A DNA stretch of 64,000 bases. It comes from Calothrix sp. PCC 7716 (GTDB lineage Bacteria > Cyanobacteriota > Cyanobacteriia > Cyanobacteriales > Nostocaceae). Numbering within the stretch: the stretch's first letter is position 1; each line of letters starts with the position of its first letter. A model generated the notes under the pieces. It searched no databases, had not been told where the DNA came from, and was given only the letters and a program-made list of their open reading frames with translations. Where the stretch lies: contig NZ_AP025018.1 of the NCBI RefSeq assembly GCF_019977735.1, forward strand, positions 7,010,580 to 7,074,579, in the 5' to 3' direction. Shown here piece after piece: positions 10,066 through 57,732 of this stretch. The position numbers and the translations under genes were made by a program.

Positions 10066-10341
10066 AAACCTGACTTTGCACTTATCTGCGGCTTGTAGGA
10101 GAGAACCAAATGGTGGATTAGTAATTGCTAGCGCTATTTATAAAGATGTCATTCCTCATGTTTTAATTCAAGGTGCCTCTGATATTTTAAAAATTTGATT
10201 TTTTTAGCGTTTAGTGGCTAAAAGTAGTAAAAAACATCCCTCCATGGCTTTGGTCTGAAAAGCTTGCCTGATAATACTTTTAGCAATTCGTCTAATTCCT
10301 TAGCGTACAAAATATCTTTTTTGGTGCGATGACCCCTTACT

Positions 10342-10545
10342 CACTGGGCAACAGATACCGAGCAAATTATTGAGAATGCTTATAAAGAATGCGCTCAGTA
10401 TGGGTTAGGAGCAATGGATGCTTTACATATCTCCGCAGCTATTTCAGTAGGTGCGGTAGAATTCCTAACCTATGAAAAACCTGAAAAATCGATCTTCCGC
10501 ACAAAAAGCATTCAAGTTATTTCTATTGTTTCAGGGTCGGACTAA
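10342..10545 (+). pseudogene. PIN-domain toxin remnant
   Basis: An open stretch without a proper start encodes the C-terminal end of a PIN-domain protein: AMDALHISAAISVGAVEFLTYEKPEKSIFR, where DALH(I/L)AAA and a following T-x-(D/E) are the usual last active-site region of VapC-like ribonucleases. The N-terminal half with the first acidic residues is missing, and no antitoxin lies nearby. Other unplaced coding-like pieces (10099-10197 and, on the minus strand, 10210-10300) surround it, showing that this 570-bp gap is gene debris. Confidence 0.5.
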
Positions 10546-42350: not shown

Positions 42351-43148
42351 ATGGTAGGAGAAAACTTTCTCCCTACTAAGAAGGTTCTTGATTTCCCTAT
42401 AACAGCTTTAAAGCTTGATGATCAAGTACAGACGATTTTAGATTGGGCTGTTGAACGTGAAAGTAAAACAGTGTGCGTAGCAAATGTACATATGCTGATG
42501 GAAGCGCATTGGAATCCGGAGTTTGCAAATATTCTTAAAGATGCAGATATTGTGACTCCAGATGGTATGCCTCTAGTTTGGATGATGCGTCAAATGGGCG
42601 CCCGATATCAAGACAGAGTAGCGGGAATGGATATTATGATGTCACTGTGTAAATTAGCTGAAGCTAAAAACATCAGTGTATTCTATTTAGGTTCGCAGTC
42701 TGAGATTCTTTCGCGGATGCGGATGCGCTTGAACAAGGAATTTCCTAGACTGAAAATAGCAGCAATGGAACCTCTACCTTTTCGTCCCTTGACAGAAGCA
42801 GAAGACCAAGCGCTGATTAAAAAGATTCACTCTAGTGGTGCTGGTGTAGTACTCGTGTCTTTAGGTTGCCCTAAACAAGAAAACTGGATGGCTCAACATA
42901 AAGGTAAAGTTCAGGCAGTCATGATTGGATTAGGTGGTGTATTCCCTGTTTACGCAGGAATTCATAAGCGGGCGCCTCGTGTTGTTCGTGATATGGGATT
43001 AGAATGGCTCTACCGTTGGATGCAGGAACCGCGCCGACTTTGGCAACGTTACACAAAGACAATTCCACCATTTATCTGGCTTGCACTTAAACAACTGCTA
43101 ACAGATAAAAGCATTCCACAAGCATATCTAGATGGAACGACTGATTAA
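42351..43148 (+). CDS. WecG/TagA/CpsF family glycosyltransferase
   Basis: A 265-residue GT26-type enzyme, which transfers a sugar (such as N-acetylmannosaminuronate or a related one) onto a lipid-linked acceptor in exopolysaccharide or wall-polymer synthesis. Seen motifs: KTVCVANVHMLMEA, DADIVTPDGMPLVWMMRQ, the RVAGMDIM motif with the conserved Gly-Asp, VSLGCPKQENWMA, and KRAPRVVRDMGLEWLYRWMQEP at the C-terminus. Length is typical. The membrane-associated C-terminal helix is present. The neighbouring terminator suggests it ends its own transcript before the lasso operon. Confidence 0.92.
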   Translation: MVGENFLPTKKVLDFPITALKLDDQVQTILDWAVERESKTVCVANVHMLMEAHWNPEFANILKDADIVTPDGMPLVWMMRQMGARYQDRVAGMDIMMSLCKLAEAKNISVFYLGSQSEILSRMRMRLNKEFPRLKIAAMEPLPFRPLTEAEDQALIKKIHSSGAGVVLVSLGCPKQENWMAQHKGKVQAVMIGLGGVFPVYAGIHKRAPRVVRDMGLEWLYRWMQEPRRLWQRYTKTIPPFIWLALKQLLTDKSIPQAYLDGTTD

Positions 43149-43715: not shown

Positions 43716-44030
43716 ATGATTGCAAAACAATTAGAACGAACAATACTCGAATCATCAGTTGTGGTTGCCAGCCCCGACCAAATTTCTTCTGACCTTGGGG
43801 ATGAAGCTGTAATTTTAAATTTAAAGTCAGGAGTTTACCACGGGTTAAATGAAGTTGGAGCAAAAGTTTGGGCTTTTATTCAACAGGCAAAAAAAGTGGA
43901 AGAAATTTTAAAAATGTTATTGCAAGAGTATGATGTTGACGCCGAACAATGCAATAATGATTTGATAGCACTACTATGTAACTTTTCCGCAGCAGAATTA
44001 ATTAGTATTAGCAATGAAACGACTGCGTAG
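43716..44030 (+). CDS. Lasso peptide B1 protein (PqqD-like, RRE), copy 1
   Basis: A 104-residue PqqD-family protein. Such RiPP recognition elements bind the leader of a precursor and hand it to the B2 protease. The chosen ATG at 43716 (MIAKQLERTILESS) aligns exactly with the copy-2 start (MILKELDQKMLESS); a GTG at 43701 is also possible. The core AVILNLKSGVYHGLNEVGA is the PqqD beta-wing helix signature. It overlaps the B2 remnant by 17 bp, exactly as in copy 2. PQQ synthesis is ruled out by the context: an asparagine-synthetase-like cyclase follows. Confidence 0.88.
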   Translation: MIAKQLERTILESSVVVASPDQISSDLGDEAVILNLKSGVYHGLNEVGAKVWAFIQQAKKVEEILKMLLQEYDVDAEQCNNDLIALLCNFSAAELISISNETTA

Positions 44031-44115
44031 TTTTTTCAAATTGAGAACGCGCGCACGTGTTCTTTTACTTATAACTTTAGTATTCCTACCATCGTTCGAA
44101 GGAGTAAGAACATGA
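44014..44115 (+). pseudogene. Lasso peptide B2 protease remnant, copy 1
   Basis: A 33-codon frame: its first 23 residues (MKRLRSFFKLRTRARVLLL) align with the B2 start of copy 2 (MKRLRNFLKMTNRARVLLL), and its last 10 (FLPSFEGVRT) with the B2 end of copy 2 (PLPSLEGVKI). The 115 codons between, including catalytic Cys and His, are missing. The loss is an exact multiple of three and retains the ATGA overlap with the cyclase start. It cannot be an active protease. Retained translation may serve only coupling. Confidence 0.85.
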
Positions 44116-46175
44116 GTGGTATTCTGGGAATTCACAACATTAACGGCGCCCATATAGACCGAACAGATTTGGAAAAAATGGTGGATATATTGGCACATCG
44201 CGGACCTGATGGCGCCGATATATGGGTTGATGGCTCAATTGGGCTTGGACATCGGATGCTGTGGACAACACCAGAATCATTGTTAGAGAAATTACCTTTT
44301 ATAGATGAAACAGGTGAATTTGTTATTACATCCGATGCTCGCATAGATAATCGCGAAGAGCTGATTGATGCGTTACAGTTTAACAACTGTTCACCAGAAA
44401 AAATTACAGATAGCGAACTTATACTAGCAGCTTATAAAAAGTGGGGTAATTATTGCCCTGAGCATCTTTTAGGGGATTTTGCTTTTGCAATTTGGGATAA
44501 GCGCAATCAATTACTGTTTTGTGCCAGAGACCATTTTGGAGTCAAGCCTTTTTACTACTATTACAAAGAAAGCGAAATCTTTGTTTTTGGGACGGAAATC
44601 AAGGCACTATTTGCATTCAACCGAATACCCCGTCGTCTCAACGAGGTGAGAATTGCTGATTTTTTAGCATTGATGATGGAAGATAAAACAATTACTTCCT
44701 ATGAAAACGTGCTAAGGTTACCACCCGCACATGCGATGGTTATCAGCCAATCTGGAATGCAACTGCGGTGTTACTGGTCGCTTGACCCACATCGAGAAAT
44801 TAAATTACCCTCTAATCAAGCTTACGCCGAAGAATTTCGGAAAATATTTACCGAAGCAGTTCGCTGTCGTATGCGTAGCGCTTTTCCTATTATCAGTCAC
44901 TTAAGTGGTGGGCTTGATTCTTCTTCGGTAACTTGTGTCGCGCGCGATATACTTAGTAAAGAAAAAAACACAAAACTACACACAATTTCAACTATCTATA
45001 ATAAAATAACAGAGTGTGATGAACGTGCTTACATCAACGCAGTATTAGAACAGGGTGGACTTATTCCTCATTACGTTTACGGTGAAGAAATTGGTCCGCT
45101 GTCAAATATGGACATGATTTTTCAGTACGAAGATGAAGGTTTACTTGGTCCAAGCCATTTCTATCCTTGGCTTGTTAACCGTGCCTCTAAAGAATTAGGA
45201 ATGCGGATAGCTTTAGATGGGTTTGATGGTGATACTACAGTCAGCCACGGAATTAACAGACTAAGAGAGCTAGCGCAGCGAGGACAATGGAAAAGTTTTT
45301 TCCATGAAGTTAAAGCTATTTCACCTAATTACAATGCTTCACCTGCCAGTCTATTTCGGGGTTACGGTTTACAATACCTGATTGAACAAGCGACTCAAGG
45401 GCGATGGTTGACGTTTGTGAAAGCTGTGCGGATTATTCATAAGCATTTACGCATGTCGCGCAAGCAATTAGTCATCAATTTTGGTTTAAAACCTATTTTG
45501 CAACAGGTGCGAGGATTTATCAGGAGTTTTTTCAAAGGTTTATTCAAAGGTACTATTAAATCGCAACGCCAACTTCAAAATTCTTCTGCTCAATCTTTTA
45601 TACCAGATAAACCTCTACTAAATAGTGATTTTGCCAAGCAGATAAATTTGAATGAGCGCATTCAGATTATGGAGACGAGTGAACCACCTCAAAATTTAAG
45701 AGAAGAACATTGGCGCGGCATGACTCAGGGTGTAATGTCTTATACTTTAGAATTGGCAGATAGATATGCTGCAATGTTTTCTATCGAAACTCGTCATCCA
45801 TTTATGGATAAGCGATTGATGGAATTTTGTCTAGCTTTACCTGCGGAACAAAAGTTATTCAACGGTTTTGGAAGAGTTGTAATGCGTCGCGCGCTAGAAG
45901 GAATATTACCAGAAAAAGTTCAGTGGCGTGGCGGCAAAGCTGATTTAAGTGCAAATTTTGACGATGGATTTATCAACCGCAACCGTGAAATTTTAGATGA
46001 TGTGATGTCTAATCAAATTAGATACTTGGAAAAGTACATTAATTCAGATTTTGTGCAAGCTGCTTATCAGCGATTGATATCAACAGGAAACGAAGTCAGA
46101 GATGAGGATATTACAGCAACTTGGCAGGCAGTTACTTTAGCTTTGTGGTTCGACTACAAGCAAATGGCGCCGTAA
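44112..46175 (+). CDS. Lasso cyclase (asparagine synthetase-like C protein), copy 1
   Basis: A 687-residue enzyme with an N-terminal Ntn amidotransferase-like domain (SGILGIHNINGAHIDRTD, HRGPDGADIW) and a C-terminal ATP-pyrophosphatase domain (LSGGLDSSSVTCVARD, ALDGFDGDTTVSHG). Residue 2 is Ser, not the Cys needed for glutamine hydrolysis, as expected for lasso cyclases that activate an Asp or Glu side chain by AMP to close the ring with the core N-terminus. It is translationally coupled to the B2 remnant (ATGA). A precursor gene follows 133 bp downstream. Confidence 0.9.
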   Translation: MSGILGIHNINGAHIDRTDLEKMVDILAHRGPDGADIWVDGSIGLGHRMLWTTPESLLEKLPFIDETGEFVITSDARIDNREELIDALQFNNCSPEKITDSELILAAYKKWGNYCPEHLLGDFAFAIWDKRNQLLFCARDHFGVKPFYYYYKESEIFVFGTEIKALFAFNRIPRRLNEVRIADFLALMMEDKTITSYENVLRLPPAHAMVISQSGMQLRCYWSLDPHREIKLPSNQAYAEEFRKIFTEAVRCRMRSAFPIISHLSGGLDSSSVTCVARDILSKEKNTKLHTISTIYNKITECDERAYINAVLEQGGLIPHYVYGEEIGPLSNMDMIFQYEDEGLLGPSHFYPWLVNRASKELGMRIALDGFDGDTTVSHGINRLRELAQRGQWKSFFHEVKAISPNYNASPASLFRGYGLQYLIEQATQGRWLTFVKAVRIIHKHLRMSRKQLVINFGLKPILQQVRGFIRSFFKGLFKGTIKSQRQLQNSSAQSFIPDKPLLNSDFAKQINLNERIQIMETSEPPQNLREEHWRGMTQGVMSYTLELADRYAAMFSIETRHPFMDKRLMEFCLALPAEQKLFNGFGRVVMRRALEGILPEKVQWRGGKADLSANFDDGFINRNREILDDVMSNQIRYLEKYINSDFVQAAYQRLISTGNEVRDEDITATWQAVTLALWFDYKQMAP

Positions 46176-46209
46176 GTCCAGTAGTCTTGGCTGGTTATGG
46201 CGGGAAATA

Positions 46210-46227
46210 TTGTCGTATTTACGACAA
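46210..46227 (+). other. Perfect palindrome before precursor 1
   Basis: 'ttgtcgta' and 'tacgacaa' are separated by two T, an 8-bp perfect stem 80 bp before the precursor start, flanked by two 'ccgtaagtcca' copies (46171 and 46238). It could be an operator or an mRNA processing structure that sets precursor expression apart from the enzyme genes. Confidence 0.4.
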
Positions 46228-46308
46228 CCATGCCACACCGTAAGTCCAATTATGGGGCACTACCGTCAAAAACTAGTACATCAATAGTTCAAAATCAGGA
46301 AATAGATC

Positions 46309-46524
46309 ATGAAAAGTTCTTACACTGCTCCCAAATTGACTGTTTACGGTAATGTTGCTGAGATTACACAAATTCTTGGTTCATCGTCAAGGAGAGATTT
46401 TATCTTTTTAAATGGCACAGCTAGTCCTGACGCTGATGCCTCTCCTGACCAAGGTTCACGAGATGTTTGCTTAGGACGTAGAGATCCTGCTCAACCACCA
46501 GCCAATTGCGATCCTCGGTTCTAG
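46309..46524 (+). CDS. Lasso peptide precursor A, copy 1
   Basis: A 71-residue precursor. The leader MKSSYTAPKLTVYGNVAEITQ has the Tyr-x-x-Pro-x-Leu and Gly-Asn-Val motif recognised by B1 proteins, and closely matches copy 2. If cleaved after TQ, as predicted in copy 2, the core starts ILGSSSRRDFIFLNG, so Asp is at position 9 and would close a nine-residue ring from Ile1; cleavage before the Gly would give a seven-residue ring to Asp7. The core would be 50 residues, with a long Asp/Pro-rich tail and two cysteines (VCLG, NCDP). An AGGAAA ribosome site precedes the ATG. Precursor role is strong; cleavage site is inferred. Confidence 0.82.
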   Translation: MKSSYTAPKLTVYGNVAEITQILGSSSRRDFIFLNGTASPDADASPDQGSRDVCLGRRDPAQPPANCDPRF

Positions 46525-46914
46525 TGTTTATGAACTGTGCATTTAGCACACAGCGCTTGCTCTTTGAAACTAGTGTTTCATCTCATTACTTTTGATGGCT
46601 CAATAAGTTCATAGTCACGAATTTAGTTTTTGATTTGAGTGCTTAAATACTCAAATCAAACCCCTGAAAATTAATGATGCAGAACACTAGTAAGTAACTG
46701 GATAAATATATACCAGTATGTTTGGGAGAGCGGGGAAGTTAGATTCTCGACTTATTTAATAAGTCGGGAATCAGTTTCACCACAAATTTTCATGTAGATT
46801 ATAAGATTGCTATATATAATTATTTGAATTTTGGAAGCGTAATCATACCAAGACAAAATTATTGATATTTTTTTAGAAAATGTCTGTTATTATTGCACTA
46901 AATAATATTAAACA
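46525..46914. other. Intergenic region after precursor 1, two hairpins
   Basis: A 390-bp gap before the kinase gene. 'tgatttgagt' pairs with 'actcaaatca' (46631-46658) and 'gattctcgactta' with 'taagtcgggaatc' (about 46741-46771). Neither has a clean T run, but both could stabilise or separate the precursor message from the kinase-transporter message. No other precursor-like frame was found. Confidence 0.5.
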
Positions 46915-47820
46915 ATGAAATATTATAAAGCCTACAACTTATGCATTGCTTCCGAATTGCAACTTCCTGAACTGGTGGAAACTGAGGGTGAACCAGATGT
47001 AATTGTGCGGTTTGGCAAAATAGATAATGCAATCGCGATACAACATGATGGCGGTCAAAATTTTCTGGGAGAAATGCCAGAAGTAGCTGAGTGTTTTATT
47101 CGCAATGGACAAGAAATTATTATCAATCCTCTACCAGGTGTTGACGAAGCTCTTCTTCGCACTGTACTTCTGGGCCCCATATTATGCGTACTGCTGCGAC
47201 AAAGGGGTCTGTTAGTTCTACATGCTAGTTGTATTGATATCAATCACAAGGGTGTAGCGTTTATGGGTGGTTCCGGTTGGGGAAAGTCTACTTTGGCAAC
47301 TGCTTTTCACACTAAGGGCTATGATGTTTTAACAGATGATGTATTACCTATTGAAATTAAGACAGGTCAACCTGTTGTTTTCCCGAGCTATCCGCAATTT
47401 AAACTTTGCCCGGATGCCGCAACTTCTTTAGGACACGATACTAATAGCTTATCGCCTGTTTCGCAAAACTCATTCAAACTAGCATATAAACTTTCTGATG
47501 GTTTCCAACAAACTCCCCTTCCATTACATCATATTTATGTATTGGATAAGGGAAGCGAACACAAAATTACCAGAATTAAACCCCAAGAAGCCTTCATTGA
47601 GTTGGTGCGTCATACTCGCGCTATTAGCTCAATTTCTAAACAGGAATTTATGGCAAATCACTTACATTTTTGTAGCGAGCTTATCAAAAATGTTAGATTT
47701 TCTCGCTTTACGCGCAAACCTTCTTTAGGAGATTTACCTGAGCTTATGAAGTTAGTTGAGGATGACTTGGCACAATCGTACCAAAACGACAGCACAAATG
47801 CCCTTAATTTTGTATCTTAA
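46915..47820 (+). CDS. HPr-kinase-like protein (K), copy 1
   Basis: A 301-residue protein with an N-terminal ~105-residue domain and a P-loop at 118-125 (GGSGWGKS), followed by a DDV Walker-B-like pair (DVLTDDVLPIE). It matches the HPr kinase-like proteins found in lasso clusters, where the paeninodin kinase phosphorylates the precursor's C-terminal serine. Here neither precursor ends in Ser, so the target could be another residue. It lies between precursor and exporter in both cluster copies. Kinase activity is inferred from family and P-loop. Confidence 0.82.
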   Translation: MKYYKAYNLCIASELQLPELVETEGEPDVIVRFGKIDNAIAIQHDGGQNFLGEMPEVAECFIRNGQEIIINPLPGVDEALLRTVLLGPILCVLLRQRGLLVLHASCIDINHKGVAFMGGSGWGKSTLATAFHTKGYDVLTDDVLPIEIKTGQPVVFPSYPQFKLCPDAATSLGHDTNSLSPVSQNSFKLAYKLSDGFQQTPLPLHHIYVLDKGSEHKITRIKPQEAFIELVRHTRAISSISKQEFMANHLHFCSELIKNVRFSRFTRKPSLGDLPELMKLVEDDLAQSYQNDSTNALNFVS

Positions 47821-47866
47821 TCTTTGTTAGCTACTATATAAATCAAAGTCGATTAATTATTTATTT

Positions 47867-49729
47867 TTGAATTCACAGGGTTTTAATATTTTGATTAGCA
47901 AACTCCGTAGCGCAAACACCATATTCTCCCATTTAGCAAAAACTCTCAACTTGGTGTGGGTAGCGTCTCGCTACTGGACTGTAGCTTGGATGTTTTTGCT
48001 GCTGCTTCAAGGATTGCTTCCCGCAGCTTCGATATCCCTGACTCCACAGGCAATTAATGCTTTAGTGTCAGTAACTGGATCGGGCATTTCTGCGGCAAAC
48101 GTCGAGAAAGTAATTGTGCCAGTAGGGTTGATGGCAGGTATCGTGCTAGTGGGGGAGATTTTAAATAGTACTGCTGAATGGATTCGCACGGCTCAGTCAG
48201 AATTAGTACAGGATTACGTCACTGGTTTGATTCAAAAACAGTCAGTGACGGTGGATTATGGCTTTTATGAATACTCTGAGTACAACGATCAACTCAATCG
48301 CGCGCGCGAAGGTGCTAGTGGTAGATCGCTTGCTTTACTAGAAAATACTGGCAGGTTATTACAAAACACCGTTACTTTGTTTGCGATGGCTGGGATTTTG
48401 GCGCCTTATGGTTTTGGGCTACCCATCACTTTAGTAGTCAGTGCTTTTCCTGCTTTCTATGTTTTGACATATTTCAATAAAATTCAGTATCAATGGTCAC
48501 AGCGTACAACAACTGATCGCCGATGGTTGATGTATTATGACTACTTGCTGACAAACAATGCCACTGCGGCAGAAGTACGATTGTTTGACTATGCTGATTA
48601 CTTCCAGTCATCTTACCGTAATCTCCGGCGGCGCCTCAGACACGAACAATTCCATCTATTAAAACTACAAACGTTAGGTCGCTTTGTTGCTACCATAATC
48701 GCACTATCAATTGCTGGTGGAGCTATGGCCTGGATAGGACGACAGGTATTGCTAGGAATTTTGACCTTAGGAGATTTAGCTCTGTTTTTTCAGGCATTTG
48801 GTCAGGGACAAAGCATTGTCAGAGACTTATTAAACAACCTAGGACAAATTTATCGCAATAGCTTGTTTCTTGGTAATTTATTTGAATTCTTACAAATCCA
48901 GTCCAAAATAGTAGAGCCGCTTAATCCTGTCCCCGTACCGTCAACACCTAAAAAGGGAATTCTTTTTCGGCAAGTTACTTTCCGCTATCCTGGTACATCA
49001 GAACCAGTGTTAAATAATTTTAACCTGACACTACCAGCAGGCAAAATTGTCGCGATTGTTGGTGATAATGGTGCTGGCAAAAGTACGCTAATTAAGCTTT
49101 TGTGCCGTTTTTATGACCCTGAGTCGGGAAGCATTGAATTAGACGGTATTGATTTGCGTAACTTTTCGGTGAAAGCATTCCGCAGGTTAATTACTGTTTT
49201 ATTCCAGTCACCAATTCACTACTACACCACGGCAGGGGAAAATATTGGTTTGGGTGACATATCAGCAGCATCAAATTATACAGAAATTCAAGCAGCTGCC
49301 AAAGCATCGGGTATCGACGATAAGATTGACCGCTTGCCCCTAGGTTATAACACTATGTTAGGTAAGTTGTTTCCTGAAGGAACTGATTTAAGTGGCGGTC
49401 AATGGCAACGTTTAGCATTGGCTAGGGCATTTTTTAGACGCGCGCAAATCATTATTTTAGATGAACCTACTAGCGCTATGGACCCTTGGGCCGAACACGA
49501 CTGGTTAGAAAGATTTCGCACATTAGCAAGCAATCGTACTGCGGTGGTGATTACTCACCGCTTTACATTGGCAATGCGGGCTGATATTATTCACGTCATG
49601 CGTGCTGGGGAAATTGTAGAGTCAGGTACTCATGATGAATTGTTGGCTCAGGGTGGTTTTTATGCTCAGTCTTGGAAATCACAAATGGAGTCTAATTTTA
49701 GTAACTCAGTTGAAAGCGCGGTTGTTTAG
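47867..49729 (+). CDS. Lasso peptide ABC exporter (D), copy 1
   Basis: A 620-residue half-transporter with an N-terminal six-helix membrane domain (WTVAWMFLLLLQGLLPAAS; ITLGDLALFFQAFGQGQSIV) and a C-terminal nucleotide-binding domain: Walker A GDNGAGKST, signature LSGGQWQRLALARAF, Walker B IIILDEPTSAMDP. It probably works as a homodimer to export the mature peptide and give self-immunity. The start is TTG (47867) or an in-frame TTG at 47891 that aligns with the copy-2 ATG; no ATG is available. The gene is intact otherwise. It is 46 bp behind K. Confidence 0.88.
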   Translation: MNSQGFNILISKLRSANTIFSHLAKTLNLVWVASRYWTVAWMFLLLLQGLLPAASISLTPQAINALVSVTGSGISAANVEKVIVPVGLMAGIVLVGEILNSTAEWIRTAQSELVQDYVTGLIQKQSVTVDYGFYEYSEYNDQLNRAREGASGRSLALLENTGRLLQNTVTLFAMAGILAPYGFGLPITLVVSAFPAFYVLTYFNKIQYQWSQRTTTDRRWLMYYDYLLTNNATAAEVRLFDYADYFQSSYRNLRRRLRHEQFHLLKLQTLGRFVATIIALSIAGGAMAWIGRQVLLGILTLGDLALFFQAFGQGQSIVRDLLNNLGQIYRNSLFLGNLFEFLQIQSKIVEPLNPVPVPSTPKKGILFRQVTFRYPGTSEPVLNNFNLTLPAGKIVAIVGDNGAGKSTLIKLLCRFYDPESGSIELDGIDLRNFSVKAFRRLITVLFQSPIHYYTTAGENIGLGDISAASNYTEIQAAAKASGIDDKIDRLPLGYNTMLGKLFPEGTDLSGGQWQRLALARAFFRRAQIIILDEPTSAMDPWAEHDWLERFRTLASNRTAVVITHRFTLAMRADIIHVMRAGEIVESGTHDELLAQGGFYAQSWKSQMESNFSNSVESAVV

Positions 49730-49857
49730 TTGTATTCAAAGGGTTTGTTAGTTAGGTATGATTGCCGCTGCTTTTGATAGAACTGGAATTCTAATTACTC
49801 ACGGCTTTACCGGGAGTTATATCATGTCCGGTTAATTACCCATAATTTCCACATTAC

Positions 49858-49887
49858 GTAGAGACGCGATGTTCCTCGCGTCTCTAC
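49858..49887. terminator. 'gtagagacgcga' perfect hairpin
   Basis: A 12-bp perfect stem (gtagagacgcga / tcgcgtctctac) with a six-base loop, 128 bp after the exporter gene; a copy of the dispersed hairpin also seen at 18498 and 58921. It likely ends or stabilises the operon 1 transcript. Confidence 0.6.
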
Positions 49888-50199
49888 AGCGTTCGGATTT
49901 TACAAATGATTTAGGACTGCTATAGATATTTCTAGCATCCCTGAAAAATCTGAATTTTCACGTATGTGGAAAACGCCATTTTGAGCGTTTCTTTAACCCT
50001 GATTATTACGTTAGGCTTTCTCATTAATTCAAAGCTATTGCGAATTAGCCTGTGGAAAAAGTCACGTGTTTTCGTGGTTTGAGGACTTACCGTGAAAAGT
50101 CAGATGAAAAATAAGATTACTGATAACTTCTACGAAGGCGGGAATCTGAACAACACAAAGTAGTATTATATAATCAAAAAAAAGTTTCATTATCAGCAT

Positions 50200-50282
50200 T
50201 ACTTTATATAATTTTTACATTTTATGTATTTTCACCGTAGTTTTATATATTTTACAATAAGTCTTATTTGTTACAGTTGTTA
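50200..50282 (+). promoter_or_regulatory. Putative promoter segment of lasso operon 2
   Basis: Counterpart of 43430-43511: 'tactttatataatttttac' and then 'tatattttacaataagtc' agree with the copy-1 segment. It lies about 440 bp ahead of B1 copy 2, compared with about 205 bp in copy 1, so the leader is longer here. Confidence 0.45.
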
Positions 50283-50719
50283 AACTACTTAGGTGTTGTT
50301 ACACTTAAAAAGTAGAAAGTTAAAGAAAGAACAAATTAAAGTTGTTCTCTTGCAAAAGGGAAGCATCCTAATGCAAGCAAAGATAAGGCTGTTCTGGATA
50401 TAGCGCGAAGCAGAGCTTTAAAAGCACGAAGAATCTAAAAGATTTAGAGATTTTGACAGATGCTTGGTTCTGCTGTACTACTGCACTCATAATTATATAC
50501 TTGCACAACCACAAACGGTTTCTATAAAAGGAAACCTTCACTAAAAGCCAAGTATAAATACTTATTGTAATTCGGGTTAGAGGTTTTGGACTGCGGTAGC
50601 ACAATTTACACAGATTTTTTCTACTTTAAAGAGAAAATTCCGGATACCGTCAAGAGCCAGCGAAGAATTTATACAATAAAAAAGAAATTCAGTAAATTTA
50701 CTAAGAGGATAGGAAAGTT

Positions 50720-51034
50720 ATGATTTTAAAAGAACTAGATCAAAAAATGTTGGAGTCTTCAGTGATAGTTGCATCAACTGAGCAAATATCTTCTGACCTT
50801 GGTTCTGAAGCAGTAATTTTAAATCTTAAGTCTGGAGTTTACCACGGGTTAAACGAAGTCGGTGCCAGCATTTGGAAGCTGATTCAAGAACCAAAGACAA
50901 TCATAGAAATTGAACAGAAACTTTTGGAAGAATACGACGTTGAACCCCAACAGTGCCACAGCGACGTAATCGCCTTAGTCGAAGAACTTTTAGCAGCAGA
51001 ACTGGTTGTGATTAAGAATGAAACGACTGCGTAA
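50720..51034 (+). CDS. Lasso peptide B1 protein (PqqD-like, RRE), copy 2
   Basis: A 104-residue PqqD-family RiPP recognition element, strongly similar to copy 1 (LESSVIVASTEQISSDLGSE; AVILNLKSGVYHGLNEVGAS). It should bind the leader YTKPKLSVHGNV of precursor 2 and, given the near-identical leader, perhaps also precursor 1. Start ATG with a GAGGAT site. It overlaps B2 by 17 bp, so the two proteins are translationally coupled. The last residues (IKNETTA) are the same as in copy 1, showing recent duplication. Confidence 0.9.
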   Translation: MILKELDQKMLESSVIVASTEQISSDLGSEAVILNLKSGVYHGLNEVGASIWKLIQEPKTIIEIEQKLLEEYDVEPQQCHSDVIALVEELLAAELVVIKNETTA

Positions 51035-51464
51035 TTTTCTAAAGATGACCAACCGAGCGCGCGTTCTGCTGTTAGCAGCATCAATACTATTAACAGGCGT
51101 TCGATTAGGTTTATTGCTACTACCCTTCCGTAATTTGATTAAACTAGTAACACATATTAGTGAAGGGTTTTTGTACTCGGTTGCTGTAAACAAAGTTTCT
51201 CTCGGTCAAATTGTTTGGGCGGTAAACGTTGTTACTCATTATATGCCAGGTGGCGCCAAATGTCTTGCGCGTGCGTTGACAACACAAGTATTGATGAGTT
51301 GGTGCGGCTATAAACCTGAACTCCGTATTGGTGTTGCTAAAGGTAAAACTGGAAACTTTGAGGCACATGCTTGGATTGAATATCAAGGACGAGTGGTAAT
51401 CGGTTATCTTCAAGACCTTCCACGCTTTGTGCCTTTACCATCTCTTGAAGGAGTCAAAATATGA
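51018..51464 (+). CDS. Lasso peptide B2 leader protease (transglutaminase-like), copy 2
   Basis: A 148-residue protein of the lasso B2 family, which cuts the leader from the core. The cysteine protease dyad appears as GAKCLARAL (Cys near residue 81) and GNFEAHAWIEYQG (His near 117), followed by the family's Glu. An N-terminal helix (ARVLLLAASILLTG) is typical. It overlaps B1 by 17 bp and the cyclase by 4 bp (ATGA). As copy 1 lacks this gene, this enzyme probably serves both precursors; that is inference. Confidence 0.9.
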   Translation: MKRLRNFLKMTNRARVLLLAASILLTGVRLGLLLLPFRNLIKLVTHISEGFLYSVAVNKVSLGQIVWAVNVVTHYMPGGAKCLARALTTQVLMSWCGYKPELRIGVAKGKTGNFEAHAWIEYQGRVVIGYLQDLPRFVPLPSLEGVKI

Positions 51465-53434
51465 GCGGCATTATGGGGATTTACCACCTTGATGGTAGCC
51501 CAGTAGAACGTGAAAACTTGGTGAAGATGGTTGACATTTTGGCACACCGAGGACTTGATGGCGCCGATATTTGGATTGAGGGTGCAGTTGGGTTTGGGCA
51601 TCGGATGCTGTGGACAACTCCTGAATCTTTGCTAGAAAAGTTACCTTTGGTTAATCAAACCAGCGATATTGTCATTACAACTGATTGTCGCATTGATAAT
51701 AGGGAAGAACTTATTTCTGTATTGCAGTTTGAGAACTGTCCACCTGAGAAAATTACAGATAGCCAGTTAATATTAGCAGCCTATGAGAAATGGGGTGAAC
51801 AATGTCCAGAGCATTTATTAGGGGACTTTGCCTTTGCAATTTGGGATAAGCAACAGCAAAAGTTATTCTGTGCAAGAGACCATTTTGGGGTTAAGCCTTT
51901 TTACTACTATCACCAGGCTGGTCAAACTTTTGTTTTTGCCAGCGAAATTAAAGGTATATTATGCCAGCCAGAGGTGCCACATCAGATTAATGAAGTCAGA
52001 ATTGGCGATTACCTGACATCAATGTTTCATGACACAGCGATAACTTTCTATGAAAATATCTTCCGACTCCCACCTGCTCATCGGATGACTGTAAGCCGTA
52101 AAGGAATACAGTTACAGTGTTACTGGTCTGTTGACCCTAAGCGTGAGTTGCATTTGGGTTCAGACGAAGAGTATGCAGAGGCGTTTCGGGAAATTTTTAT
52201 AGAAGCAGTGCGCTGCCGTCTACGTAGTGCGTTTCCCGTTGGTTCAATGTTGAGCGGTGGACTCGATTCTTCATCTATTACCTGCACAGCAAGAAAACTG
52301 CTGACGGAAAATGCGGCGCAGCAGCAACTACACACCTTCTCCGCAGTATTTGATAAGTTAACCGAATGTGACGAGCGTCCCTATATCAACGCAGTTCTTG
52401 CTCAAGGTGGAATCGAGCCGCACTATGTTAAGGGCGATTCGTCAAGCCCTTTAAAAGACTTAGACCGGATGTTCTGGCATCAAGATCAAGCCTTTTACGC
52501 TCCTAATTGGTCTATGAGTTGGGAGTTGTATAAAGAAATTCAAGGGCAAGGTGTTCGTGTAGTTTTAGATGGTTATGATGGTGATAACGTCGTCTCTAAT
52601 GGTTATGGATACTTAAGTGAATTAGCACGGGCAGGGCGTTGGCTCACTTTAAGCAGAGAAGTTAAGGAACTGTCTAAAACTTTAAATCAACCTTTTTGGG
52701 GATGGCTGTGGAGTTACGTGCAGCACTATGCAATCAATCCAACAATTTCCAGATATCGACCCTTTAGGCTGATACGACGGATTTGGCAAAAACTAAAGCC
52801 TTTACGTTGGGAAAATAAGCAACCTGTATGGAGTGAGATCGTTAATCCTGAGTTTGCCCAGCGTATTGGTCTAGAAGAACGCTATAAGGTTTGGGGAAAG
52901 CTCCAAGGTCACTTTGGTCTAGACGAAAGAGAAAGGCACTACCGAAACATTGCTACTCAAGGTCTAACATCATTTGCCCTTGAGTATATGGACAAAAGTT
53001 CTGCTGCTTGTTTTATTGATCAACGCTACCCATTTTGGGATAAAAGATTGGTGGAGTTTTGCCTTGCCCTACCTCCTGAGCAAAAGCTGCACATGGGCTG
53101 GAGCCGCGTCGTGATGCGCCGTGCGATGGCAAATATTCTGCCTGCAAAAGTACAATGGCGCAGAGGCAAAGCAGATTTTTCTCCAAATCTTTCCCACGGT
53201 TTGTTGTATTTTGAGCAAGAGCGTTTGGAGGAATTAATTCTCAATGATTTAGGAACCTTTGAGAAATATGTAGATAGCACCACCCTACGGAAAATTTATC
53301 AACGATTTGTTTCCAGTGAATCTCAAACCACAGGCATGGATGCACGCAAAATTTGGATCGCTATTTCTCTGGTTTTATGGTTGGACTATACAGCAGAAGG
53401 CAGACTTAATGAAATTAGACAAAAAGCAGTTTAA
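51461..53434 (+). CDS. Lasso cyclase (asparagine synthetase-like C protein), copy 2
   Basis: A 657-residue lasso cyclase. The N-terminal domain begins SGIMGIYHLDGSPVERENL and has HRGLDGADIW (a Leu where copy 1 and most relatives have Pro); the initial Ser replaces the amidotransferase Cys. The synthetase domain has LSGGLDSSSITCTARK for pyrophosphate binding and VLDGYDGDNVVSNG. It is probably ATP-dependent and forms the isopeptide bond between Gly1 and Asp9 of core 2. It is coupled to B2 (ATGA) and followed after 177 bp by the precursor gene. Confidence 0.9.
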   Translation: MSGIMGIYHLDGSPVERENLVKMVDILAHRGLDGADIWIEGAVGFGHRMLWTTPESLLEKLPLVNQTSDIVITTDCRIDNREELISVLQFENCPPEKITDSQLILAAYEKWGEQCPEHLLGDFAFAIWDKQQQKLFCARDHFGVKPFYYYHQAGQTFVFASEIKGILCQPEVPHQINEVRIGDYLTSMFHDTAITFYENIFRLPPAHRMTVSRKGIQLQCYWSVDPKRELHLGSDEEYAEAFREIFIEAVRCRLRSAFPVGSMLSGGLDSSSITCTARKLLTENAAQQQLHTFSAVFDKLTECDERPYINAVLAQGGIEPHYVKGDSSSPLKDLDRMFWHQDQAFYAPNWSMSWELYKEIQGQGVRVVLDGYDGDNVVSNGYGYLSELARAGRWLTLSREVKELSKTLNQPFWGWLWSYVQHYAINPTISRYRPFRLIRRIWQKLKPLRWENKQPVWSEIVNPEFAQRIGLEERYKVWGKLQGHFGLDERERHYRNIATQGLTSFALEYMDKSSAACFIDQRYPFWDKRLVEFCLALPPEQKLHMGWSRVVMRRAMANILPAKVQWRRGKADFSPNLSHGLLYFEQERLEELILNDLGTFEKYVDSTTLRKIYQRFVSSESQTTGMDARKIWIAISLVLWLDYTAEGRLNEIRQKAV

Positions 53435-53611
53435 GCCAGCGTCACAGTTCTTTAATAGACTCAACATTATACATCAGATCGTTGTCCTGTTGGCTATTGC
53501 CTTTTAGGGAACATCCAACAGCACAGCGAGTCTGGTTGTTAACCAAATAGCTGTATTTTAGGCTCTCTACGAGTCAATCTTCTAATTCAACGAAACTCAA
53601 AGGATAAAACT

Positions 53612-53776
53612 ATGACTTCCCAAAATAAAGTCTACACCAAGCCCAAACTCTCCGTTCATGGAAATGTCGAAGCTCTGACCCAAGGTGGAAGCACCGGTAA
53701 TTTTCTCGACAGAGACTTCCCAGATGGTACACCCAGAGGTGACTTGACCTTCTCTGAAACTCCCATGAGAGGATAA
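53612..53776 (+). CDS. Lasso peptide precursor A, copy 2 (54 residues)
   Basis: A short gene, ATG with AAAGGAT seven bases upstream, encoding leader MTSQNKVYTKPKLSVHGNVE then ALTQ, and core GGSTGNFLD, RDFPDGTPRG, DLTFSETPMRG. The Tyr-x-x-Pro-x-Leu...Gly leader motif and a Thr at position -2 before the cut are canonical lasso features; Gly1 and Asp9 fit a nine-residue macrolactam ring. The tail is 21 residues. Its position after the cyclase is the same as that of precursor 1. Too short for ordinary gene callers, it could be missed in annotation. Confidence 0.88.
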   Translation: MTSQNKVYTKPKLSVHGNVEALTQGGSTGNFLDRDFPDGTPRGDLTFSETPMRG

Positions 53777-53807
53777 TCTAATAGTACGGTTTGGTTAAAG
53801 TAAGATA

Positions 53808-53828
53808 CCTAGGTTTCTAGAGCCTAGG
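53808..53828. terminator. Short hairpin after precursor 2
   Basis: 'cctagg' and 'cctagg' (self-complementary arms) enclose 'tttctagag', forming a small stem 31 bp after the precursor stop; no T run follows. It may mark a processed 3' end that raises precursor mRNA stability. Confidence 0.4.
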
Positions 53829-53862
53829 CATTCCTTCTAGCTAAACTCTGCTTAGATTGCAA

Positions 53863-53992
53863 CTAGTGGTCTATGTCATTAATTTTAGCGAGTTCTTGTA
53901 GCATAGGCATCTCGCTTGTGCATTGGTCAGGCAGGACAGCTAACTTACGAATCATTCATTATACCAACAAAATTAATGACATGGACTACTAG
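53863..53992. repeat. Putative MITE, 130 bp, with 24-bp terminal inverted repeats
   Basis: Left end 'ctagtggtctatgtcattaa'+'tttt' and right end 'aaaa'+'ttaatgacatggactactag' are inverse copies with 22 of 24 positions matching. The 80-bp interior is unrelated to either end and has no frame. It lies between precursor 2 and the kinase gene and is a candidate non-autonomous mobile element, different from those at 28417 and 41452. Confidence 0.6.
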
Positions 53993-54202
53993 GCAGAGGT
54001 ATCAACCGATGCAATTACAAATATATTAGTCTATTTTTGCAACCCAATATGTAGGGAATTACGTTCCTACAAAACAAATTGAGTTGTTTTGTTAAATCAG
54101 TATACTAACCGTTTATCTTAACTCGCCAGTGGGCAAACAACAAGACACAGACGAGTGTTCAATGTTCGGTTCAGAAACATACTTTTGATGGAGTTTATTT
54201 AG

Positions 54203-55129
54203 ATGTATGCTTACAATGCTTACGGTCTGAGCATTTGCTCTGATTTACCTTTGCCCGAACTACAAGTCTCAACAGAAGCTAGAGCAGATGTAGTCATTCG
54301 GCTTGGCACAATAAATTGGTCTCCACCAGTACCTCTCCCTAAGTGGAGTTATTTTCATGTTGATGGCGATTCAGCATACTTCTACTGGGAAGTAGTTGGT
54401 AAATTTCAAGTCAAGTCTGGATCCGAGATTATTATTGAACCACTTTTAAATGTAGAAGAGGGTGTAATTCACCTCCCCTTATTGGGATCGGTCTTAGCAA
54501 TGGTACTTCACCAGCGGCAGCGTTTAGTGTTACATGCTAGTGCTGTTGCCATCAATGGCAATGCTGCCATATTTTTGGGAGCATCTGGGCAAGGTAAGTC
54601 TACAATGGCAGCTACACTTTATGGCAGAGGTCATAAACTGATGGCTGATGACGTGGCTGCTATAAACTTAGAAAGCGTCACCAAGCCTATATTAATTCCA
54701 GGCTTTCCTCAAATCAAACTTTGGCCCGAAGCTCTCACTGCTGCCTTGGGTGATAATCCAGAAAGTTTAAACAGAATTCACCCGGAGGTTGAGAAACGTG
54801 CCCGCCCCACCATTGATAATTTCTTGCAAGCACCGTTGACTCTCAAGCGTATCTACGTACTTCGTAAAGGCTTTCATCCTGAAATTAAACCTCTCCAACC
54901 TCAAGAGGCTATAGCCCAACTTATTGCAAATTCCTTTATTCCGATGTTGCTGGGCAATAAATTTCTCCAAAGTTCAAAAGCTGCTTTGCACTTACGTCAA
55001 TGTAGTAGTCTTGCCCAGAATTTACCTATTTATAGCCTTGAACGGCCCCGCTCCCTTGATTTGTTACCTAATATTGCGCGGTTAGTGGAAGAAGATTTGG
55101 CAAATGAGCTTGAGCCAGCAATGACTTAA
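54203..55129 (+). CDS. HPr-kinase-like protein (K), copy 2
   Basis: A 308-residue counterpart of K copy 1: N-terminal YAYNAYGLSICSDLPLPEL matches YYKAYNLCIASELQLPEL, Walker A is GASGQGKS at 126-133, and LMADDVAAIN contains the acidic pair. It is probably a kinase that modifies the lasso precursor, by analogy with the paeninodin kinase; core 2 has Ser3, Thr4, Thr16, Thr22 and Ser24 as possible targets but no C-terminal Ser. It is 19 bp ahead of the exporter start and probably co-transcribed. Confidence 0.82.
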   Translation: MYAYNAYGLSICSDLPLPELQVSTEARADVVIRLGTINWSPPVPLPKWSYFHVDGDSAYFYWEVVGKFQVKSGSEIIIEPLLNVEEGVIHLPLLGSVLAMVLHQRQRLVLHASAVAINGNAAIFLGASGQGKSTMAATLYGRGHKLMADDVAAINLESVTKPILIPGFPQIKLWPEALTAALGDNPESLNRIHPEVEKRARPTIDNFLQAPLTLKRIYVLRKGFHPEIKPLQPQEAIAQLIANSFIPMLLGNKFLQSSKAALHLRQCSSLAQNLPIYSLERPRSLDLLPNIARLVEEDLANELEPAMT

Positions 55130-55148
55130 TTTTCGACTATTGTTTACT

Positions 55149-56984
55149 ATGTCAAGAAATTTTACGACTAAATTACGTAGCTCTATCACTCAGCTATCTT
55201 ACTTACCACAAACTTTTAATTTAATTTGGGCTGCATCCCGAAATTGGACTTTAGCTTGGATTATTTTACTAGTCTTTCAGGGAGTACTACCTGCTGCTTC
55301 TGTTTACCTAACTCGACTAGTAGTTAATAGCGTAGTGCAAGTAGTTGGTAAAGGTATTTCTTGGGAAAGTATCCAAACAATTTTAATCCCAGTCGGTTTG
55401 ATGGCAGGTGTTCTACTTCTAACTGAATTTTTGCAAGGTGCCAGCGAATGGATTAGGACTGCACAGTCCGAATTAGTACAAGATTATATTAGCGGGTTAG
55501 TTCACAAACAGTCTATAGCTATTGATTTTGGTTGCTATGAATCCTCAGAATACAACGACCGCTTAGAAAGAGCGCGAGAGGGTGCTGGTAGTCGTTCGCT
55601 TGCTTTGTTAGAAAATACTGGTACTTTGTTGCAGAACAGCATCACGCTTTTTGCAGTAGCAGCAATACTTATTCCCTATGGTTTTTGGCTACCGATTATT
55701 TTAGTTGCTAGCGCTTTCCCTGCTTTTTATGTGGCTTTTCGTCTAAATTTACACCAATATCAGTGGTCACAGCGGACAACTACAGACCGACGGCGCCTTC
55801 AATATTATGAGTTGCTACTAACCAGCAGTTGGGCTGCAAAAGAATTACGGCTATTTAATTTTGGTTCCTATTTTCAATCAGCTTATCAAAAATTGCGGCG
55901 CCGCCTACGCAACGAGCAGATCAAACTGATTGAACAGCGAACTGTGAGTCGTCTGGTTGCTGGGTTTATAGCGCTGTTAGTTACTAGTGCTTCTCTTGCT
56001 TGGATGGGTCGGCAAGTGTTACTAGGAATTATTACTTTAGGTGATTTGGCACTTTTCTATCAAGCTTTTAACCAAGGGCAGAGCATCGTAAAGTCTCTGT
56101 TAGGAAGTTTAGGGCAGATATACAAAAATAGTTTATTTGTTAGTAATTTATTTGAGTTTTTGAAAATAAAACCCAAAATTGTAGACCCACCGCAACCCTT
56201 GCCTATACCCTCAAAACTTCAACAAGGAATTAATCTTCGACAAGTTACCTTCCGCTATCCAGGTAGCGAAAAACCAGTATTAAAGAACTTTAATCTTACT
56301 ATTCCTGCTGGTAAAATTGTGGCAATTGTTGGGGATAACGGTGCTGGTAAAAGTACCCTTATCAAACTTCTATGTCGTTTTTACGACCCAGAGTCTGGAA
56401 GCATTGAGCTAGATGATAATGATATCCGAGAGTATTGCGTTGAAGCATTCCGAAAATTAATTACGGTCTTGTTTCAAGACCCACTACCCTACTATGTTTC
56501 GGTTACAGATAATATTGCGATGGGTGATTTATCTATAACTCCCAGCCAATCTGAAATTGAAGCATCTGCTAGAGGCGCCGGAATTCATGATAAAATTGTG
56601 CGCCTAAGAGATGGTTACGACTCAATGCTGGGTAAATGGTTTCCCGGTGGTACCGATTTAAGCGGTGGAGAATGGCAGCGTTTAGCACTAGCACGAGCAT
56701 TCTTGAGAAAAGGCGAGATTATTATCCTCGATGAACCAACAAGTGCAATGGATCCTTGGGCAGAGCATGATTGGCTAGATCGCTTCCGGAAAATGGCGAA
56801 TGGTCGTACTGCAATTGTAATTACTCACCGTTTTACCTTAGCTATACGCGCGGATATTATTCATGTTATGCGTGCGGGTAAAATTGTGGAATCGGGTAGC
56901 CATGATGAATTGCTGGCTTTGGGTGGTTTGTATGCTGAGTCATGGAAATCGCAAATGGAATCACATCACGAAGTCAGTGTATAA
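55149..56984 (+). CDS. Lasso peptide ABC exporter (D), copy 2
   Basis: About 611 residues from ATG 55149 (MSRNFTTKLRSSITQ); a TTG three codons earlier is less likely. The membrane domain (six helices) and the NBD (GDNGAGKST, LSGGEWQRLALARAF, IIILDEPTSAMDP) are highly similar to copy 1 throughout, which supports a tandem duplication of the whole operon. It should export the mature peptide. All nucleotide-binding residues are intact. Confidence 0.9.
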   Translation: MSRNFTTKLRSSITQLSYLPQTFNLIWAASRNWTLAWIILLVFQGVLPAASVYLTRLVVNSVVQVVGKGISWESIQTILIPVGLMAGVLLLTEFLQGASEWIRTAQSELVQDYISGLVHKQSIAIDFGCYESSEYNDRLERAREGAGSRSLALLENTGTLLQNSITLFAVAAILIPYGFWLPIILVASAFPAFYVAFRLNLHQYQWSQRTTTDRRRLQYYELLLTSSWAAKELRLFNFGSYFQSAYQKLRRRLRNEQIKLIEQRTVSRLVAGFIALLVTSASLAWMGRQVLLGIITLGDLALFYQAFNQGQSIVKSLLGSLGQIYKNSLFVSNLFEFLKIKPKIVDPPQPLPIPSKLQQGINLRQVTFRYPGSEKPVLKNFNLTIPAGKIVAIVGDNGAGKSTLIKLLCRFYDPESGSIELDDNDIREYCVEAFRKLITVLFQDPLPYYVSVTDNIAMGDLSITPSQSEIEASARGAGIHDKIVRLRDGYDSMLGKWFPGGTDLSGGEWQRLALARAFLRKGEIIILDEPTSAMDPWAEHDWLDRFRKMANGRTAIVITHRFTLAIRADIIHVMRAGKIVESGSHDELLALGGLYAESWKSQMESHHEVSV

Positions 56985-57105: not shown

Positions 57106-57732
57106 ATGTTTGCATATGAACAGTTAAATGTACAGCAAGAAGTTAGCGAAAGAGATGCGTTTACAATTGAGCGGTATCAGCAGTTTTATCACTTTTTTCC
57201 TGCAAATGCTCGTAATGTACTAGATATAGGGTGCAATACAGGTAGAGGTGGGCAAGTGCTAAAAACTCTTGATAGTAAACTTGAAATTTCTGGTCTGGAT
57301 TGCGTTAAAGACAGGCTTAATAAGCTACCTAAGCAAGCATATACTAATGGAATTTATGGGTTATCAACAGAAATTCCTTGTGATGACTATAGTTTTGATG
57401 TTGTAGTAGCTGGGGAATTTATTGAGCATATATATGCTGTAGATGTTGACAAGACATTGGCAGAAATATTTCGAGTTTTAAAAATTGGTGGCAAATTTTT
57501 GCTAACAACTCCTAACCCTCTAGATATAAAAAAAAGAATGCGTGGTGAAAGTGTTTTGGGTGGCGCCCATGTTTCTCAACACTTCCCTGACACTTTGAAA
57601 ATGAAAATGAAAATGATGGGTTATTCCCAAACTAAAGTTTACGGCAGCGGCAAAATGTCTCGGCTTTTTGGCTATCATTTCCCTTGGTTAGATATCTATG
57701 GAAGTTACCTAGCAACAGGTACAAAAAAATAA
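57106..57732 (+). CDS. Class I SAM-dependent methyltransferase
   Basis: A 208-residue methyltransferase. Motif I is VLDIGCNTGRGG (residues 40-51), the acidic residue of motif II is in SGLDCVKDR, and motif IV is DVVVAGEFIEHI; VLKIGGKFLLTTPNP is the usual motif VI. It belongs to the Methyltransf_11 type, with no substrate specificity visible. It could tailor the lasso peptide or, more likely given the following genes, a glycan. A GAGG site lies ahead of the ATG. It is 121 bp behind the exporter. Confidence 0.85.
   Translation: MFAYEQLNVQQEVSERDAFTIERYQQFYHFFPANARNVLDIGCNTGRGGQVLKTLDSKLEISGLDCVKDRLNKLPKQAYTNGIYGLSTEIPCDDYSFDVVVAGEFIEHIYAVDVDKTLAEIFRVLKIGGKFLLTTPNPLDIKKRMRGESVLGGAHVSQHFPDTLKMKMKMMGYSQTKVYGSGKMSRLFGYHFPWLDIYGSYLATGTKK

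Follow-up and report, generated by a model that had tools for sequence, protein, structure and literature searches.

Two neighbouring lasso-peptide operons in Calothrix sp. PCC 7716 probably share one leader peptidase, the B2 protein of the second operon, with front parts that are resident in the genus and other parts that have been exchanged. The operons were found at positions 43716-56984 of a stretch of 64,000 nucleotides (G000:C1:7010580-7074579 within the 12.4 Mb genome), referred to as the window. Both lie on the plus strand, and each contains genes for a leader-binding protein (B1), a macrolactam cyclase (C), a precursor (A), an HPr-kinase-like protein (K) and an ATP-binding cassette (ABC) exporter (D). 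The leader peptidase gene B2 is intact in operon 2 and present only as a remnant in operon 1. Operon 1 thus consists of B1a, the B2 remnant, C1, A1, K1 and D1, and operon 2 of B1b, B2, C2, A2, K2 and D2. The initial annotation had described two adjacent operons with identical gene order; the adjacency, the common strand and the five shared genes stood, and the identical order did not, as operon 1 lacks B2. The gene content, the remnant, the breakpoints of the mosaics and the association of B2 loss with having more than one cyclase can be read directly from the sequences. The genes of the operons are as follows.

43716..44030, plus strand: B1a, PqqD-like leader-binding protein of operon 1 (PF05402 E 1.6e-17; NF033536 72.5 bits, cut-off 80); an in-frame GTG at 43701 is a possible alternative start
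44014..44115, plus strand: 33-codon remnant of the operon 1 B2 (E 1.4e-7 in tblastn with intact B2 proteins)
44112..46175, plus strand: C1, lasso macrolactam cyclase (NF033535 1043 bits, cut-off 525)
46309..46524, plus strand: A1 precursor (NF033528 lasso_cyano 73.8 bits, cut-off 33, E 7.7e-21)
46915..47820, plus strand: K1, HPr-kinase-like tailoring kinase (PF07475 E 3.9e-6, under the Pfam gathering score)
47867..49729, plus strand: D1, ABC exporter (PF00005 E 1.5e-32)
50720..51034, plus strand: B1b, leader-binding protein of operon 2 (PF05402 E 1e-20; NF033536 78.3 bits, cut-off 80)
51018..51464, plus strand: B2, leader peptidase of operon 2 (NF033537 108 bits, cut-off 33)
51461..53434, plus strand: C2, lasso macrolactam cyclase (NF033535 972 bits, cut-off 525)
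53612..53776, plus strand: A2 precursor (leader model NF033521 21.8 bits, cut-off 19; NF033528 28.4, below cut-off)
54203..55129, plus strand: K2, HPr-kinase-like tailoring kinase (PF07475 E 1.3e-7, under the Pfam gathering score)
55140..56984, plus strand: D2, ABC exporter (PF00005 E 5.8e-32; 91% identical to D of operon 2 of congener G002)

By their matches to dedicated protein models, both operons are real lasso-peptide operons, in agreement with the initial annotation. Both cyclases match NF033535, A1 matches NF033528, A2 matches NF033521 and the B2 of operon 2 matches NF033537; PF05402 was found in the B1 protein of both operons, with NF033536 slightly under its cut-off in both. An identity of the C proteins as true asparagine synthetases, raised in the initial annotation, is ruled out by the scores of 1043 (C1) and 972 bits (C2) with NF033535, which are far above the 275 and 301 bits obtained with the asparagine synthase model. 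Both cyclases start with Met-Ser-Gly, so the glutaminase Cys2 is absent.

Loss of B2 in operon 1 and the number of cyclases per genome

Between the stop of B1a (44030) and the start of C1 (44112) the only open reading frame (ORF) is the 33-codon frame at 44014-44115. It consists of the first ~24 and the last ~9 residues of B2, joined in frame, and is 345 nt shorter than the gene of the 148-residue B2 of operon 2. Like that intact B2, the remnant overlaps the B1 stop and, via ATGA, the cyclase start. Operon 1 would have lost B2 by an in-frame deletion which preserved the overlapping frames of B1, the B2 remnant and C. The B2 of operon 2 is the only intact one at the locus, and the genome has a single further B2 match, at a distance of 3.8 Mb. 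A1 would be processed in trans, either by the operon 2 enzyme or, with lower probability, by that of a distant third cluster.

The same remnant is present in congener G003 (locus L034), with three base differences in 102 bases and one amino-acid change (by eye), differences which say nothing on the function of the 33-residue remnant. Congener G006 carries a different B2 deletion in which most of B1 is gone as well. In its operon 1 (L037 1-400) a B2 start of ~38 residues is left, and the adjacent operon 2 is complete. Congener G004, with a single operon of this type, has kept B2. B2 debris was also detected in G006, G087 and G089, with an E value of only 0.02 for L038 (G052), and tblastn found weak debris or none for L064 (G037), L040 and L041 (G054), L080 and L084-L087.

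The relation between B2 loss and cyclase number was analyzed in 150 genomes including our own, 53 of which have a cyclase scoring over the NF033535 cut-off (72 cyclases in all; more distant lasso cyclases, such as that of the third cluster of our own genome, L090, are not in these counts). We examined 59 stretches of relatives and the third cluster, which together with the window cover 66 cyclases; the other six (G077:C20, G076:C323, G104:C35, G037:C99, G148:C49 and G115:C62) were assessed from their coordinates only. With B2-less defined as having no B2 within 1,500 bases upstream of the cyclase, a B2-less cyclase occurred in 12 of 17 multi-cyclase genomes and in none of the 36 single-cyclase genomes (Fisher p 2.3e-8), and B2 was present somewhere in all 53 genomes. 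At a limit of 100 bases the counts were 13/17 and 4/36, since some B2 genes sit slightly further off. A kinship-aware test on the C tree used 18 independent pairs, of which on average 5.6 were concordant and none discordant (median p 0.031, range 0.016-0.125), and B2 loss changed at least 10 times on the cyclase tree.

A second set was drawn from 217 family members, of which 83 have a cyclase; 47 of these were already in the first set, and the 36 new ones were used. Here, in counts read off by hand, a B2-less cyclase was found in three of six multi-cyclase genomes, all three with B2 debris upstream, and in none of 29 evaluable single-cyclase genomes (Fisher p 0.003). The single-cyclase genome G265, in which no B2 was found, was set aside because 126 bases separate its cyclase from a contig end and the genome is 84% complete; counting it gives 1/30 and p 0.010. 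G191, a single-cyclase genome with 38% contamination, was kept in the count.

These counts bear on the possibility that operon 1 is independent of B2, its leader being handled by a host protease or by the cyclase alone. The title of a pseudomycoidin paper, which announces synthesis without leader and leader peptidase, speaks for such a route. If it operated, however, single-cyclase genomes should lose B2 too; none of the 36 or of the further 29 evaluable ones has done so, and a B2 is present somewhere in every one of the 53 first-set genomes. We consider this explanation very unlikely.

Operon 1 might also be dying, silenced by the loss of B2 with the remainder still to decay. Consistent with decay, some relatives also lack B1 ahead of a B2-less cyclase (G006, G052 and G054; G089 likewise shows no B1, but near a contig end), and operon 1 of G003 lacks K and D. 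However, the frames of C1, A1, K1 and D1 are open, and the ratio of nonsynonymous to synonymous substitution rates (dN/dS) of C1 against its G003 counterpart is 0.117 for codons 1-612 (0.15 for the whole gene). Two other B2-less cyclase pairs gave 0.174 and 0.204, and four B2-bearing pairs gave 0.086, 0.136, 0.138 and 0.241; by this measure cyclases kept without B2 look constrained. In addition, the A1-K1-D1 part, which is 87-95% identical to operons of other genera, seems to have been acquired later, and loss of B2 was seen in no single-cyclase genome of the first set. A dying operon is therefore unlikely. B1 is retained upstream of eight of the 14 B2-less cyclases in the relatives' stretches and the window (one of the eight is truncated), and in G259 an intact-looking B1 precedes B2 debris, so B2 seems to be lost first.

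Mosaic structure of the two operons

Both operons are, from alignments and trees, mosaics in which a genus-resident B1-B2 front is joined to C, A, K and D segments of other lineages. Sharp DNA breakpoints were found at ~46,000 in operon 1 and at ~51,750 and ~55,100 in operon 2, which delimit the following features.

45950..46050, plus strand: approximate recombination junction in the 3' end of C1 (sliding DNA identity, best-match scan)
51750..55100, plus strand: exchanged segment of operon 2 with the C2 body, A2 and K2, ends approximate (DNA identity to operon 2 of G002)

In operon 1, the DNA identity to G003 is 0.87-0.99 up to ~45,950 and then falls to 0.40-0.65, after which there is no counterpart. 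The identity to L062 rises from 0.77 to 0.90 past the same point and then holds mostly at ~0.9 as far as the end of D1, except for a drop between A1 and K1. Right of the junction, the C1 end, A1, K1 and D1 are like L062 and L051 of other genera (the 87-95% identity given above is for the best match per 300-base piece), and K1 and D1 group with L051, L055, L062 and L038 and not with K and D of G003, G004 and G006. In operon 2, pieces of 300 bases compared with operon 2 of G002 are 0.84-0.93 identical for starts at 50,800-51,550, 0.48-0.70 for starts at 51,850-55,000 and again 0.84-0.92 for starts at 55,150-56,650. C2 and K2 group with L071, L072, L075 and L081 at no more than 72% protein identity, so their donor lies outside the sampled set.

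The trees were quick searches without a mixture model; L090 was dropped from the later ones, and L080, L068_B1_3424 and L076_D_10954 were dropped from the clade tests as long branches. The B2 proteins of the genus (7 rows) form one side of a branch with a support of 95 in the Shimodaira-Hasegawa-like approximate likelihood ratio test (SH-aLRT), and so do the B1 proteins (9 rows), with SH-aLRT 87 on a branch that was not starred. A single congener clade was rejected by the approximately unbiased (AU) test for C (10 rows, p-AU 2.8e-38), K (9 rows, 1.6e-60) and D (8 rows, 1.2e-43). Among 33 same-genus operon pairs, 27 have a C identity below 0.65 (7 genera, 20 of the 27 pairs in this genus). In those 27 pairs B2 is 0.64-0.93 identical, the low end being pairs with G004 and pairs of genus 46; in 985 different-genus pairs the median is 0.56 and the 95th percentile 0.64. 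The genus-wise grouping of B1 and B2, the rejected clades of C, K and D and the B2 pair identities together indicate that the front follows the lineage and that the rest has been exchanged.

The initial annotation had read the locus as duplicated machinery with strong similarity gene by gene. The two copies of B1 are 64% identical, those of D 67%, those of C 48.5%, those of K 37% and A1 and A2 43% (over 37 residues). A simple tandem duplication followed by divergence would account for the gene order, which is equal apart from B2, for the identity of B1 and D and for the position of both B1a and B1b inside the congener group. However, C1 and C2, and likewise K1 and K2, belong to separate clades with their nearest relatives in other genomes: the C1 clade contains congeners G003, G004 and G006 and also G054, and C2 is nearest to the four loci named above. 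With the DNA breakpoints added, only the B1-B2 front can be a duplicate, and a duplication of the operon is highly improbable; with B2 missing in operon 1 as well, the duplication claim was not upheld.

The fronts could have become genus-specific through gene conversion within the lineage instead of movement of cassettes. The fronts adjoin the conserved flank of wecG, the gene upstream of the operons, which would help homologous exchange. Yet congener G005, with one such operon, joins the genus front to a cyclase that groups with that of G087, a member of another genus, and gene conversion is in our view a doubtful explanation. The functional conclusion is the same either way.

Under the sharing of B2 that we favour, recombination beside wecG would have brought C-A-K-D parts from other lineages next to a B1-B2 front resident in the genus. 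With a second front present, one B2 would be redundant and would decay; B2 would serve several lasso operons in trans, so that redundant copies decay.

Several points weigh against this proposal. The genomes in the Fisher counts are related by descent and not independent of one another, the paired test reaches only p ~0.03, and the three losses of the second set fall in two genera already showing loss and are only partly independent. Five of the 17 multi-cyclase genomes have no B2-less cyclase, and G054 and G115 have B2 only elsewhere, adjoining none of their NF033535 cyclases. The in-frame state of the remnant is one event with a 1-in-3 chance. Compared with G003, identity is 97% in the front of operon 1 and only ~91% in the C1 body, so C1 may have diverged in part before the deletion. 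For the resident front, the identity between G004 and the other congeners in B2 is no more than 0.64-0.67. Pseudomycoidin, according to the title of a paper on it, is reportedly made without a leader peptidase; B2 might then be something that operon 1 can do without instead of sharing it. The pseudomycoidin cluster contains a B2 gene.

Precursors, tailoring genes and the wecG site

A1 has a 21-residue leader and a 50-residue core (46372-46521) with Cys33 and Cys46 both in the tail; A2 has a 24-residue leader and a 30-residue core (53684-53773). Tyr(-17), Thr(-2) and Asp9 are present in both, in keeping with the YxxPxL leader and the Asp or Glu at core position 7-9 that mark lasso precursors. 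Removal of the leader of A1 would be by a cut after Thr-Gln. The lasso leader register Y(-17) to L(-12), taken from an excerpt of PMC10368454, places residue 1 at Ile in A1 and at Gly in A2, and the rings are predicted to be Ile1-Asp9 and Gly1-Asp9 in threaded macrolactam products, whose ring size we infer. A 7-residue ring from Gly3 of A1 was rejected, as Tyr(-17)/Leu(-12) in the excerpted register and Thr(-2) put residue 1 at Ile and the register of A2 is equal with Gly1.

Conservation of the A frames in related genomes, on which the initial annotation had made its lasso call depend, was borne out. Related precursors were picked with a leader motif in which Thr holds a fixed position, so the set gives no measure of Thr(-2) retention; after removal of cores shorter than 12 residues or with a run of X, 88 unique cores from 52 loci were obtained. 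Asp occupies core position 9 in 73 of the 88; when the first 30 residues per core are shuffled, the number averages 10.3 and reaches 22 at most. Cysteines are absent from 42 cores and number exactly two in 46 (related cores are not independent), a pairing that suggests a disulphide. Outside the C2 clade, 64 of 70 unique cores are 35-55 residues long, residue 1 is hydrophobic with Gly rare, and 41 of 70 have a possible disulphide. To our knowledge, paired cysteines with a residue 1 other than Gly make this a predicted lasso type outside the usual set. Arrays of similar lasso precursors were seen in L078 (five, 9351-10539) and in L045 (six, 5767-7843, one partly masked).

The residues His-Lys-Asp-Asp, reported as needed in PadeK/ThcoK-type kinases (PMC9266682), are present in K1 and K2 and in 63 of 64 aligned K proteins (L080 left out). 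The kinase target is the C-terminal Ser in paeninodin (PMC9266682) and Ser3 in BsfA (PMC10368454, excerpt). Neither precursor ends in Ser, the last residue being Phe in A1 and Gly in A2. A C-terminal Ser occurs in 11 of 18 cores of the C2 clade and in 4 of 70 others (p 1e-6), and 51 of the 70 cores outside the C2 clade have an internal Gly-Ser-x-Asp/Asn motif. In A2 the Ser of an LTFS motif is followed by six extra residues, and its nearest relatives mostly stop directly behind this motif; A2 seems to have been lengthened past the likely kinase site by a small indel. With low confidence, we propose the LTFS Ser in A2 and the Ser of Gly-Ser-Arg-Asp (core position 29) in A1 as the phosphorylated residues; Ser4-6 would be the alternative in A1. 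For A1 the calculated monoisotopic mass is 5326.54 for the core less water, 5324.52 with the disulphide as well and 5404.49 with disulphide and one phosphate; for A2 it is 3181.45 for the core less water and 3261.42 with one phosphate.

The gene set runs beyond 56984 with a methyltransferase and two PF14907 proteins, followed 3' of the pair by a glycosyltransferase and a heparinase-like gene.

42351..43148, plus strand: wecG, WecG/TagA-type glycosyltransferase, conserved left neighbour (PF03808 E 2.4e-61)
57106..57732, plus strand: S-adenosylmethionine (SAM) methyltransferase (PF08241 E 5.8e-13)
57783..58910, plus strand: NT1, PF14907 nucleotidyltransferase-like protein, PsmN-type candidate (E 6.5e-60)
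59029..60243, plus strand: NT2, second PF14907 protein (E 5.2e-55)

NT1- or NT2-like proteins were seen by eye in 36 of the 59 stretches of relatives, which end at different distances, and genes similar to the methyltransferase in three of them (L050, L059 and L076). With a kinase and a PF14907 nucleotidyltransferase-like protein both encoded in the window, the products, which would be phosphorylated, glycosylated and exported, are perhaps modified as in paeninodin and pseudomycoidin. A promoter scan was uninformative (36 sites against 34.8 expected).

wecG was found in 7/7 genomes of the genus examined, with 89-98% identity in the six others, and the lasso locus adjoins it in the window as well as in G002-G005. 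Both wecG and the lasso locus are at contig ends in G006, and in G001 the corresponding place lacks a lasso operon and is occupied by genes that look, by eye, to be of polysaccharide type. The downstream block is shared with G002 (NT1 77%, NT2 82%, glycosyltransferase 83% and heparinase-like gene 89% identical); in G002 (L103 3649-7422) dTDP-rhamnose-type synthesis genes, recognized by eye, lie between NT1 and NT2, and there are none there in the window. Paeninodin-like clusters of Bacilli sit in capsular polysaccharide loci (excerpt of PMC13381572).

The distant third lasso-type cluster of the genome, L090 (G000:C1:10861000-10877500), contains a B2 (NF033537 86.6 bits), a cyclase-like gene (153 bits to C2), a weakly HprK-like ORF, an ABC exporter and, by eye, methyltransferase-like and transposase-like ORFs; no precursor was found there with the motif used. 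Elsewhere in the window, an ORF at 20325-21671 has HHH_6 and an OB-fold; its start resembles the C-terminal half of the split DnaE intein, with the C-terminal part of DnaE after it. A pentapeptide-repeat-like protein (by eye) is encoded at 8524-10065, and the long opposite-strand open frame at 8686-9198 within it is a usual by-product of the repeat.

Relation to known lasso systems

The operon architecture is ordinary for the family. The order B1-B2-C-K-D was seen by eye in 46 of the 59 stretches of relatives, so a precursor after the cyclase is normal in the family. The suggestion that the system is little described was only partly right, as dedicated cyanobacterial NCBIfam models exist, 53 of 150 genomes have the cyclase and a cyanobacterial cluster is in print (PMC9332814, excerpt). 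New are the finding that one operon has lost B2, the association of such losses across the family with the presence of other cyclases, and the pattern of resident fronts and exchanged cassettes. A search of openly licensed papers by title and start of abstract, a set that does not include the RODEO survey or the original papers on pseudomycoidin and paeninodin, gave no report of B2 sharing between lasso operons or of such cassette exchange.

We lean slightly towards a family-wide split between a lineage-resident B1-B2 pair, with B2 acting in trans for several pathways, and a horizontally exchanged module of cyclase, precursor, kinase and exporter; new products would then need no new protease, and outside the C2 clade they would be unusually long lasso peptides. 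If B2 acts in trans, genome mining operon by operon wrongly writes off B2-less lasso operons as dead, and a single protease could be used for several products in engineering. The pattern of resident fronts and exchanged cassettes offers a testable route for the spread of new lasso products and predicts which cyclase-precursor cassettes fit which B1-B2.

Compared with cyanobacterial lasso operons (NF033535/NF033528; the Cyanocohniella cluster in the excerpt of PMC9332814), the window is alike in cyclase family, in the cyanobacterial-type precursor A1 and in discrete B1 and B2, and differs in the deletion of B2 from one of two adjacent operons, the mosaic structure and the two cyclase clades. 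With the paeninodin type (PadeK, ThcoK, SyanK; excerpts of PMC9266682 and PMC13381572) it shares an HPr-kinase-like K with His-Lys-Asp-Asp, a PF14907-type NTP transferase, an exporter, the location in a polysaccharide locus and, in the nearest relatives of A2, a mostly C-terminal Ser. In contrast to that type, A1 lacks a C-terminal Ser and has a 50-residue core with two tail Cys, the Ser of A2 is trailed by six residues, and the leader motif has Tyr instead of Trp. BsfA of Bradymonas (PMC10368454, excerpt) is similar in its kinase cluster with discrete B1 and B2 and in the Y(-17) to L(-12) register, but has Ile(-2) and Asp8 where Thr(-2) and Asp9 are found here. Pseudomycoidin (PsmK, PsmN) is alike in combining a kinase and a nucleotidyltransferase-like protein, which yield a phosphorylated, hexosylated product (excerpt of PMC9266682); unlike this Bacillus cluster, the locus described here carries a pair of PF14907 genes and has B2 in only one of its operons.

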